DNA from: an uncultured Desulfuromonadales bacterium | GTDB lineage: Bacteria; Desulfobacterota; Desulfuromonadia; Geobacterales; Pseudopelobacteraceae | Direction of reading: 5' to 3' | NCBI GenBank assembly: GCA_903868145.1 | Contig: CAIPTY010000053.1 | Span: forward strand, 1-64,000 | Length of the DNA stretch: 64,000 bases | Shown here: piece after piece, positions 40,001 to 55,193 of the stretch | Numbering within the stretch: the first letter of the stretch is position 1 | Layout of the letters: every line of letters begins with the position of its first letter | The notes under the pieces: generated by a model | Told to the model about the DNA's origin: nothing | Database searches by the model: none | What the model saw: the letters and a program-made list of their open reading frames with translations, nothing else | Position numbers and translations under genes: made by a program

Positions 40001-41656
40001 TCATGCGTTGTCATGACTGGTTGTCATCACCTCATTGATGGCCGCCAGCAACCCCTCTTTTCTGACCGGTTTTGACAGATAGGCATTCATTCCAGCCCGG
40101 AAGCAGCGCTCCCGATCCTCCTTCATGGCATTGGCTGTCAGGGCAATGATCGGCACATCATGGTTAAGAACGGCGGATGATTTATCACGAATCAGGGAGG
40201 TTGCTTCATAACCGTCCATCTCCGGCATCTGGCAATCCATCAGTACCAGATCATAATTTATCTGTTCCAGAGCCTTCAGCGCCTCAAGACCGTTGGCAAC
40301 GACATCGGCCTTGTACCCCAGTTTGCTCAGCAGGCTCTGGGCGACCTTCTGATTGATGATGTTGTCTTCGGCCAGCAGAATGCGCAAATCAGGGGGTGCG
40401 ACAATCTCTTCTGCAACGGAGTGGATTACCGCCGATCTGTGATCAGCAAGAGGATCTTCAGACTGTTTTTCAAAACGAATGGTAAACCAGAAGGTCGAGC
40501 CTTTACCCTCTTCGCTCTCGACACCAATCTGCCCCCCCATCAGTTCTGAAAGCTGTTTGCAGATGGTCAGTCCCAGCCCGGTTCCGCCATATTTACGGGT
40601 AGTGGAACCATCCACCTGGGTAAAGGGTGAGAAGATTGCGGAGCGGCGGGTCGCCGGTATGCCGATGCCGGTATCGCAGACACCGAAGCGGATAACGACG
40701 TGATCGGGTTCAGCGGACTCAAGCCCCACATGTATGACAATGTCGCCGCTGTCGGTAAACTTTATGGCGTTGCCGACCAGGTTGGTAATAATCTGCTGAA
40801 CCCTTCCGGAATCACCCTTCAACAGTAACGGCACGTCAGGATCGATCCGGTCACGCAGCCCCAATCCTTTTTCCGTAGCCCGCAATTTAAGAATATCTAT
40901 GGTGTCATCAAGGGTTGACCGCAGGTCAAAATCAAGCACCTCCAGTTCCAGCTTGTGAGCCTCAATCTTGGAAAAGTCCAGAATATCGTTAATCAGCGCC
41001 AGCAGATTTTCTCCGCTCTTTCTGACAATTTCGGCATACTCACGCTGCTCAGGCGTAAGGTCAGAGTCCAGCAGCATGCTGGTCATGCCGATCACGCCAT
41101 TCATCGGGGTGCGTATCTCATGACTCACAACGGCCAGAAACTCGCTCTTGGAGCGGGTTGACTCCTCCGCTATGACCAGTGCGTTGGAAACCTCGTTGTT
41201 CTTCTTTTCCATATACTCGGAAAAAGCCATCAGTGTTTCTTCAGCCGCCTGGCTGTCGGTGATGTCCCGGGCATAACCGGTTGTGCCGACAACTTCGCCG
41301 TTGGCACCAAAGACCGGCGAGGTGAAGATTTCAAACAGGCGCACACGCCCGGCAATGGGGAGATAGCCGGTCTGCGATATCTGCTTGCCGCTTTTGAGCA
41401 CCGTCTGATCGTTTTTGATAGACTCATTCGCAAGTTCAGGCGGGAAGATATCAACGTCCGTCCTGCCCAGAACCTGATCCGGATTTCCACGTGAGAAGGC
41501 ATTACTGAAGGCTTTATTTACCGCAAGAAAACGGCCTTCACCGTCCTTCAGCCACACCATGCCGGGGAGATTATTCATCACAGCGGACAACTGAAGTGAG
41601 TGAACTTCCGACTGAGACGCGATCAAACTATTGGTGGTACCGCTACCGCTGTTCAT
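40001..41656 (-). CDS. Cytoplasmic PAS hybrid histidine kinase
   Basis: About 551 residues without a membrane helix: PAS domain ([37 protein letters not shown]), coiled coil, HisKA with [18 protein letters not shown] (His near 177), HATPase ([35 protein letters not shown]) and a C-terminal receiver ([18 protein letters not shown], Asp near 471). A self-contained sensor with its own receiver; output partner unknown. ATG at 41656 with AAAGG is preferred over a TTG at 41725. Stands alone, with the rhlE promoter divergent from it. Confidence 0.88.
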
Positions 41657-41801
41657 GGCTGGCCTTTGACAACCCGTTATGATTGAACTGGTTAAGAAGT
41701 ATATATCAAGAGATTCGTTAGTCAACCATAATCAGTTCAGAAATCAGCGCGCCACGACATATCCGGTGTACTGCCGTTTTGAGAGATGCCTGAGTAACTG
41801 C

Positions 41802-41830
41802 TTGACATTCATCGACTAAAGCGGTAAAGA
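41802..41830 (+). promoter_or_regulatory. Candidate sigma-70 promoter for the rhlE leader
   Basis: TTGACA (41802-41807), 17-base spacer, TAAAGA followed by T (41825-41830). Predicted start near 41837, about 95 bases ahead of the helicase ATG. Confidence 0.6.
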
Positions 41831-41836
41831 TACGAC

Positions 41837-41903
41837 AGGTAGCATACATTTCCCGGAACATCGCGTCTAACGTAAGCCCCGAAATATCTCCGGGGCTTTT
41901 TTT
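41837..41903 (+). ncRNA. Putative short leader RNA or small RNA upstream of rhlE
   Basis: Defined only by a predicted promoter start and the intrinsic terminator. About 65 bases, with no convincing ORF in it. It could be a 5' leader subject to attenuation or an independent small RNA. No known RNA family was recognised. Confidence 0.35.
41875..41903 (+). terminator. Intrinsic terminator in the leader of rhlE
   Basis: Stem AGCCCCG/CGGGGCT (41875-41881 and 41891-41897), nine-base loop, followed by seven T. It stands between the promoter at 41802-41830 and the helicase start at 41931, so it either attenuates the helicase mRNA or ends a small RNA of about 65 bases. Confidence 0.8.
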
Positions 41904-41930
41904 ATTCAGCATCACAGAGAGAAGGCTAAC

Positions 41931-43274
41931 ATGGAATTCAGGTCATTCAATTTTCATCCGCACGTCGCAGCCGGGGTTCAATCGGCCGGTTACACAACCC
42001 CCACCCCAATCCAGGAGCAGGGTATTCCTCCCGTCATGCAGGGCCTGGACGTCATGGGGCTGGCCCAGACCGGCACCGGAAAAACAGCCGCCTTCGCCCT
42101 GCCGATCCTGCATCGGCTGATGCAGGGAGAGAGGGGCAAAGTCCGCGCCCTGATCGTTGCCCCGACGCGCGAGCTGGCCGAACAGATCAACGAGGCCATC
42201 AACCAGTTGGGAAAGCTGACTCGTCTGAGGAGCATTACGATTTACGGCGGTGTGGCCGTCAACCCTCAGATCGACAAACTGAAACAGGGGGTCGAGATCA
42301 TTGTGGCCTGCCCCGGAAGGCTGCTTGACCACATCGGCCAGGGCACCATCAACCTCTCACACCTTGAAGTCCTGGTGCTGGACGAGGCTGACCAGATGTT
42401 CGACATGGGGTTTCTGCCTGACATCAGAAAGATCCTCACGCATATCCCCCGGAAACGCCAGACTCTGCTGTTCTCCGCCACCATGCCGGATGACATACGT
42501 CGCCTGGCCAGCGACATCCTGACAAAACCGGTCACGATCCAGGTCGGCAGCACCGCCCCTCCGGTCACCGTGACCCACGCAATCTACCCGGTTGCCCAGC
42601 ATCTGAAAACCCCTCTGCTGCTGGAGCTGCTGAAACATACTGATACCGAATCGGTACTGATCTTTACCCGCACCAAGCACCGGGCAAAAAGGCTCGGCGA
42701 GCAATTGGAGAAGGCCGGATACAAAGCCGCATCACTGCAGGGCAATCTTTCCCAGAACCGCCGCCAGGCAGCCCTGGACGGATTCCGCGACGGCAGCTAC
42801 CAGATTCTGGTGGCTACCGACATCGCTGCCCGCGGCATCGATGTGTCACAGATTTCACATGTCGTGAATTACGACATACCTGACACCGCCGAGGCTTACA
42901 TCCACCGCATCGGCAGAACCGGTCGGGCAGCACGCAGCGGGGATGCCTTCACCATGGTGACCCCGGACGATGCAGCCATGGTACGCATCATTGAGAAAAA
43001 ACTGGATGCCCAACTCGAACGGCGGAGTGTCGATGGATTCGATTACGCTGTCCCGGCGCCCCATAAGGATCAGGAGTTTGCCCGGCCGCCGCGTCCACCA
43101 CAGAATCATAAAAAACCGGCAAAAAGAGACACGACACACGCAACCCCGGGAAGACCGGGCGCACCCAAATCGCCTGCCACTGGAAGGCCTCAGCCCCCCT
43201 CCGGCAGCAAGCCCGCCCATCCTTCGTCCGCGCCTGCTGCACGCCATCCGCAGCGGGCTCCCCGGGCACGTTGA
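41931..43274 (+). CDS. rhlE: DEAD-box RNA helicase, RhlE type
   Basis: 447 residues. Q motif region (GYTTPTPIQEQGIPPVMQG), Walker A AQTGTGKTAAFALPIL, PTRELAEQI, DEAD box LDEADQMFDMGFLPDI, SAT in LLFSATMPDDIRRLA, and C-terminal motifs VATDIAARGIDVSQI and HRIGRTGRAARSGD. The last 70 residues are Pro/Lys/Arg-rich and disordered, as in RhlE proteins. RNA unwinding in ribosome assembly or cold adaptation is the usual role. AGAAGG seven bases before ATG. The only plus-strand gene between 1 and 45 kb, with its own promoter and terminator-bearing leader. Confidence 0.94.
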   Translation: MEFRSFNFHPHVAAGVQSAGYTTPTPIQEQGIPPVMQGLDVMGLAQTGTGKTAAFALPILHRLMQGERGKVRALIVAPTRELAEQINEAINQLGKLTRLRSITIYGGVAVNPQIDKLKQGVEIIVACPGRLLDHIGQGTINLSHLEVLVLDEADQMFDMGFLPDIRKILTHIPRKRQTLLFSATMPDDIRRLASDILTKPVTIQVGSTAPPVTVTHAIYPVAQHLKTPLLLELLKHTDTESVLIFTRTKHRAKRLGEQLEKAGYKAASLQGNLSQNRRQAALDGFRDGSYQILVATDIAARGIDVSQISHVVNYDIPDTAEAYIHRIGRTGRAARSGDAFTMVTPDDAAMVRIIEKKLDAQLERRSVDGFDYAVPAPHKDQEFARPPRPPQNHKKPAKRDTTHATPGRPGAPKSPATGRPQPPSGSKPAHPSSAPAARHPQRAPRAR

Positions 43275-55116: not shown

Positions 55117-55193
55117 GGCGGTGTAGCTCAGCTGGTCAGAGCAAGCGACTCATATTCGCTAGGTCCGGAGTTCAAATCTCTGCACCGCCACCA
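55117..55193 (+). tRNA. tRNA-Met (anticodon CAU)
   Basis: 77 bases including an encoded CCA. Acceptor stem GGCGGTG/CACCGCC, D arm GCTC..GAGC, anticodon stem AGCGA/TCGCT around loop CTCATAT with anticodon CAT, T arm CGGAG/CTCTG with TTCAAAT. First pair is G-C, so elongator type is likelier than initiator; a lysidine-modified tRNA-Ile2 cannot be excluded by eye. Confidence 0.93.

Follow-up and report, generated by a model that had tools for sequence, protein, structure and literature searches.

We propose that the element lying directly ahead of an RhlE-like DEAD-box RNA helicase gene in the window (the whole 64,000-nucleotide stretch of DNA analyzed here, from an uncultured Desulfuromonadales bacterium) is probably a cis-acting transcription-attenuator leader of that gene. 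From comparison across relatives, the leader is best read as a new RNA family, of an attenuator kind that is already known. An earlier note had seen in this place the form of an attenuated leader or of a small RNA: a promoter-leader-terminator unit is kept beside the helicase gene, and complementarity spanning the terminator speaks more for the first of these alternatives, the leader, than for a small RNA that stands alone. The features of the window copy are collected in Table 1. The best NCBIfam models for the helicase were RhlE2, CshA, and RhlE, all under their cut-offs, and the curated RhlE cut-offs were not reached (425.6 versus 743 bits for PRK10590, 395.2 versus 750 bits for RhlE1, and 436.5 versus 925 bits for RhlE2). 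We call the gene RhlE-like because its scores against the RhlE/CshA-type models fall below these cut-offs.

Table 1. Features of the predicted leader and of the helicase gene in the window
Feature	Position	Strand	Basis
Leader promoter: TTGACA (41802-41807), 18-nt spacer, weak -10 AAAGAT (41826-41831)	41802..41831	+	aligns to TTGACA-N18-TAnnnT in relatives
Short terminated leader RNA (predicted, ~66 nt)	41838..41903	+	deduced from the place of the -10 and the end of the U-tract; R1 match 65.7 bits
Conserved motif, consensus GUUCC[A/C]GGA, window AUUUCCCGGA	41848..41857	+	GGA invariant in 28/28 A1 leaders
P1 small hairpin	41863..41873	+	ACGA-loop-UCGU in many relatives; 3 pairs in window
Terminator hairpin P2	41874..41898	+	stem AAGCCCCG (41874-41881), 9-nt loop, CGGGGCTT (41891-41898)
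Segment that may pair with the motif as antiterminator: GAAAU in window, GGAAU consensus	41881..41885	+	sequence reading
Intrinsic terminator U-tract, seven T	41897..41903	+	sequence reading
27-nt spacer with ribosome-binding site (AGAGAGAAGG)	41904..41930	+	sequence reading
RhlE-like DEAD-box RNA helicase gene, 447 aa	41931..43274	+	Pfam DEAD 175.9 bits, Helicase_C 112.8 bits

Folding bore out the strong terminator that had been noticed ahead of the helicase: the hairpin region 41866-41907 reaches -13.8 kcal/mol with a z-score of -4.2, none of 200 shuffles was equally stable, and the stem (41874-41898) runs into seven T. By sequence, an intrinsic terminator is present between the promoter and the first gene of the unit, and the 27 nt claimed to separate it from the ATG are confirmed by a U-tract end at 41903 and an ATG at 41931. 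The hairpin is missing from the output of a simple terminator scanner run over the window, probably because its 9-nt loop exceeds the scanner limit of 8. A plus-strand gene ending at this terminator from upstream seems unlikely, since the nearest upstream gene (40001-41668), encoding PAS, HisKA, HATPase_c, and receiver domains, diverges on the minus strand; a promoter-like TTGACT-N16-TATACT (10/12) lies ahead of this divergent PAS/histidine-kinase/receiver gene at 41698-41725 on the minus strand. In 38 of 50 helicase orthologs, a terminator stands no more than 90 nt ahead of the gene start, as against 3 of 45 other gene starts of the window, these controls being the starts of the longest non-overlapping ORFs of at least 450 nt.

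The promoter had been called good, which holds for its perfect -35 and for its retention in relatives, where TTGACn-N14-16-TGnTA occurs in 75/92 leaders versus 0.06 expected in shuffles. It does not hold for the window -10, which matches the consensus at 3/6 positions (our own reading, at the 18-nt spacing of the relatives), and the promoter is absent from the promoter-scan list of the window. On this reading, transcription would start at about 41838, some 36 nt ahead of the terminator stem. A second promoter downstream of the terminator, at 41904-41925, which would have spoken against an attenuated leader, is unlikely because a whole promoter and the ribosome-binding site would not both fit into the 27 nt that follow the U-tract, and the window scan lists no plus-strand promoter there; a promoter overlapping the terminator hairpin could nonetheless be present, in the window or in any relative.

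Amino-acid biosynthetic attenuators place alternative hairpins and a terminator ahead of the gene. The window leader differs from them in that it lacks a translated leader peptide: no ATG, GTG, or TTG occurs in the window from 41838 to 41930, and attenuation through a leader peptide was rejected on this ground (an ATG lies within 15/92 leaders). A start-like reading of the ACG of P1 was likewise rejected by eye, as the loop length breaks the frame.

The unit is widely kept in the order and class. The helicase had a match at E ≤ 1e-60 in 57/57 relatives, paralogs included, and upstream regions were taken from 50 orthologs, 31 of which, aligned and read by eye, display the architecture of promoter, leader, and terminator, with TTGAC in 29/31 at 86 to 105 nt ahead of the terminator 3' arm. 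From these 31, the 28 leaders with the GGA motif (three divergent ones were omitted) made up alignment A1, on which the covariance model R1 was built. At E ≤ 0.01, R1 matched 216/277 class genomes, a count whose weak matches include ordinary terminators. Among 90 matched class loci that were examined, the helicase follows on the matching strand in 79 (the partly masked L138 being counted by direct reading). The helicase was present in all 69 examined loci scoring at least 42.4 bits, and the 11 loci without it all scored at most 42.2 bits, five of them being deliberately chosen second hits of their genomes. Absence of the terminator in close relatives, which would also have counted against the earlier reading, was not observed: three relatives of the same genus keep it (R1 scores of 79.5, 75.2, and 67.8 bits), though its distance to the ATG is 74 to 150 nt longer than in the window. 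The inserts between terminator and helicase in these relatives of the window's genus (L070, L074, and L091) carry CCTGATAAACAGGATA-like hairpins, none of which is found in the window copy.

A broader model, R2, built from 77 sequences, matched 24/395 genomes of the phylum, 12 of the 24 lying outside the class, and in three further orders it matched 2/3, 22/96, and 2/12 genomes, five of which were already among the 12. The matched loci outside the class are followed by the helicase in 32/34 cases (exceptions L259 and L266; the start codon is only approximate in L256, L257, L261, and L263). Judged by these matches, the leader element is common within the class and patchy beyond. For the analyses below, 92 leaders were compiled from 78 of the 79 linked class loci (the masked L138 dropped), together with the window and 13 first-set loci; counted on 91 loci, they span 19 families and 42 genera.

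The spacing to the gene divides these leaders. In 66/92, window included, at most 116 nt separate the model start from the ATG; because the start codon follows so closely, leaving little room for another promoter, the helicase mRNA most likely arises by readthrough. The remaining 26 have longer spacers, and there the helicase gene could have its own promoter. Several loci show spacers of their own kind: 346 to 351 nt separate terminator and helicase in L252, L264, and L267, and GAGATCGGCT, found before the gene in L249 and L252, is complementary to AGCCGATCTC just past the U-tract of L252, which perhaps marks a further structured domain. In family f6 (L114, L118, L122, L123, L128, and L131), about 91 to 113 nt lie between the U-tract and the ATG, and a CCUG/CCUA segment of the spacer seems to change alongside CAGG/UAGG in the motif (L123 and L128).

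Read by eye, the consensus runs from the promoter through about 20 nt to GCUGUUCC[A/C]GGA, an A-rich stretch, P1 (ACGA-UCGU), the P2 terminator (AAGCCCCGGAAU...CCGGGGCUU), the U-tract, bases resembling GGAAC, and the ribosome-binding site. No part is better conserved than the terminator. In P2, 98.5% of cells are paired and 5/9 pairs have two-sided changes; these values come from an alignment fitted to the structure, as does the 83% of cells paired in P1 in alignment A4. The cross-locus pairing test for P1 was not significant (1173/20000). Across the 77 rows of this fitted alignment, two-sided changes affect 9/13 pairs against a shuffle mean of 3.4 (0/500 as high); covariation on the first 28 close sequences showed no excess over expectation and was uninformative. 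In the folds of some leaders, the A-rich stretch pairs with the U-tract, and the GGA motif is a candidate CsrA site. A known RNA family was rejected, as Rfam 15 scans gave no match to the leader element: at gathering score, the sole match in the window was a tRNA at 55117-55190, and none was obtained in 13 further element-bearing loci or in the element-less L028; L249, L252, and L264 gave no match. A relaxed scan of 41700-42000 returned two matches far below threshold (22.1 versus 52 bits and 19.4 versus 70 bits).

In relatives, the motif is complementary to the bases just after the U-tract, which are of the GGAAC type and can pair back to it across the terminator (P0). Examples are GUUGUAC/GUACAAC, GUUGCA/UGCAAC, CGUUCC/GGAACG, and CAGUAAC/GUUACUG. 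The MAFFT alignment A3 loses the P0 register across genera, and P0 was instead tested by swapping partners among 65 of the 66 short-spacer leaders (L147 was dropped, its start being uncertain). Under a first definition, 124/20000 permutations reached the value of the own partners; under a tighter definition, chosen after the first one, 0/20000 did so when swapped by genus and 3/20000 by family, and shuffles of the 3' strand gave 0/200. Whole-leader folding of the short leaders predicts at least 3 P0 pairs in only 36/66. Outside the class, complementarity of 22 leaders exceeds shuffles (0/200), and the permutation with families swapped is not significant (2077/20000), perhaps because many of them share GUGUUCC/GGAACAC; this set consists of the 24 loci with a parsed terminator within 60 nt minus two without a recognizable motif, and it includes L272, for which the rule picked a wrong motif. 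In the window copy a clear P0 is not evident, its own duplex (-6.9) being in another register.

Since P0 can form only in RNA that has been read through, it speaks for a leader acting in cis. A separate small RNA gene, ended by a terminator of its own, acting in trans and merely followed by the helicase gene, is in our estimation unlikely. Such a gene would account for the compactness of the terminated RNA and for its conserved motif, for the persistence of the unit in same-genus relatives despite the insert before the gene, and for orphan copies without the helicase, L266 and L139. Yet the helicase linkage (79/90 and 32/34 loci) speaks against it, it makes complementarity beyond the RNA's own terminator meaningless, and the short-spacer loci leave little room for a further promoter. 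The two orphans deserve description: L266 (G725:C27, 1501-1592, minus strand) scores 58 bits and precedes a gene that by eye is nitronate-monooxygenase-like, its genome having a second, helicase-linked copy (L280), and L139 (G011:C59, 301-375) is a weak match of 40.9 bits with GUUACCGGACAAAC and a terminator, for which no helicase was found in the ~2-kb locus and only a paralog-like best helicase match in the genome (6.9e-95). At most, these copies hint at a possible dual role of the leader, in cis and in trans, like that of GraL (below).

For the attenuator leader that we favor, a competing structure is expected, and the motif can pair with the 5' arm of the terminator and the start of its loop. 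When the RNA was cut before the 3' arm, a motif:5'-arm helix of at least 3 expected pairs was predicted in 80/92 leaders, and it vanishes in folds once the 3' arm is present. Expected motif:5'-arm pairs amount to 4.82 versus 0.86 in 30 dinucleotide shuffles, whereas all upstream pairs with the 5' arm amount to 6.16 versus 4.90 (range 4.53 to 5.17); likewise, the motif pairs beat 90% of the leader's own shuffles in 76/92 leaders, all upstream pairs in just 22/92. The excess over shuffles is unspecific, because the motif also beats shuffles against the terminator 3' arm (0/200), a pairing that was itself rejected (cross-locus 3029/20000, not significant, and CCAGG variants break it by eye). Covariation of the motif:5'-arm helix by partner swapping was null, with 17541/20000 swaps by genus and 11529/20000 by family as good or better. 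Genus g50 (L129, L133, L134, and L151) has GUACC with GGUAU in place of GUUCC with GGAAU, where GGUA also pairs inside the terminator stem, and the window has AUUUC with GAAAU; these variants fit compensation between motif and 5' arm, but they are few and ambiguous. Taken from folding models, an antiterminator role for the motif:5'-arm helix is plausible.

The null covariation of the antiterminator is also what a merely leaky terminator would give, one that, free of any regulation, keeps helicase mRNA at a constant low level or insulates the gene. The terminator being the best-conserved part agrees with this simpler account, as does the fact that some orthologs keep just the terminator after csp or other genes; on the other side, it leaves both the conserved motif and the P0 covariation of the class unexplained, and we hold it to be quite improbable. 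An operator at the DNA level, in which the motif and the post-terminator bases would be protein-bound inverted repeats, could draw on the near-palindrome UUCCnGGAA of the motif (by eye) near the expected transcription start, but the paired segments drift together between genera, unlike what is expected of fixed binding sites, and this account is very hard to credit.

We propose a model in which a single promoter-like site drives a short leader that ends at the strong intrinsic terminator, helicase mRNA being made by readthrough. In the nascent RNA, the motif GUUCCnGG would pair first with the terminator 5' arm (CCCCGGAAU) as a transient antiterminator, from which the terminator 3' arm would then displace it. 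The rate of this exchange, which may depend on temperature, polymerase speed, or an RNA chaperone or helicase, would set the readthrough. In readthrough RNA, the motif would re-pair with the bases that directly follow the U-tract (P0), so that the leader would be closed ahead of the ribosome-binding site. This may form a circuit in which scarce helicase or cold would slow refolding and raise readthrough, and abundant helicase would speed refolding and terminate its own mRNA. Several of the features concerned are weak in the window copy, namely the -10, the 3-pair P1, and P0, which is not clear there.

By analogy, control of the leader by helicase feedback or by cold is plausible, given the genes that precede the helicase in some relatives and the cases of Caulobacter rhlE and cyanobacterial crhR. 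Among orthologs without the leader, a cold-shock-domain gene lies directly upstream of the helicase in L009, L014, L028, and L052, and rpsU in L008 and L011 (identities rest on Pfam results for a single protein of either type); the terminator before the helicase is kept in all of these except L011. In Caulobacter crescentus, rhlE is induced at low temperature, transcriptionally and post-transcriptionally, with maximal expression requiring the 5' UTR, and cspA is cold induced through transcription attenuation at the optimal temperature (PMC5472812). For the window gene, such a dependence on the 5' UTR would be a putative likeness; a difference is that the Caulobacter rhlE UTR has 186 nt and, in the cited portion of that report, stem-loops are described and a terminator is not mentioned (PMC5472812). 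The RNA helicase encoded by cyanobacterial crhR adjusts its own expression with temperature; the cited portion names the half-lives of transcript and protein and an accumulation of transcript that depends on CrhR, with no leader terminator in that account, unlike the window leader (PMC3485376). A likeness in form, by description and not by sequence, is offered by the greA leader of Escherichia coli, where the small RNA GraL and an intrinsic terminator precede a transcription-factor gene; there, the greA product feeds back in cis through GraL, which also acts in trans on nudE (PMC6829880). The window leader is likewise a predicted short RNA with an intrinsic terminator before a gene; the downstream gene here is instead a DEAD-box helicase, and feedback or trans action would be hypothetical for it.

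Among the matches listed from open-access PMC titles and abstracts, none describes the leader element, which would add a structured RNA unmatched in the searched Rfam copy. To our knowledge, the tuning of DEAD-box helicases in bacteria is poorly understood. A more far-reaching possibility, which we put forward tentatively and regard as doubtful, is a helicase-sensing RNA switch across much of the phylum: in its own nascent leader, the helicase would hasten the replacement of the motif:5'-arm helix by the terminator, the cell would thus gauge its unwinding capacity (and hence cold) and adjust synthesis, and P0 re-pairing would lock the readthrough mRNA in an active state. With a compact leader carrying a predicted folding switch beside one helicase gene, across the class and parts of the phylum, self-sensing of a helicase via its own mRNA would become directly testable.
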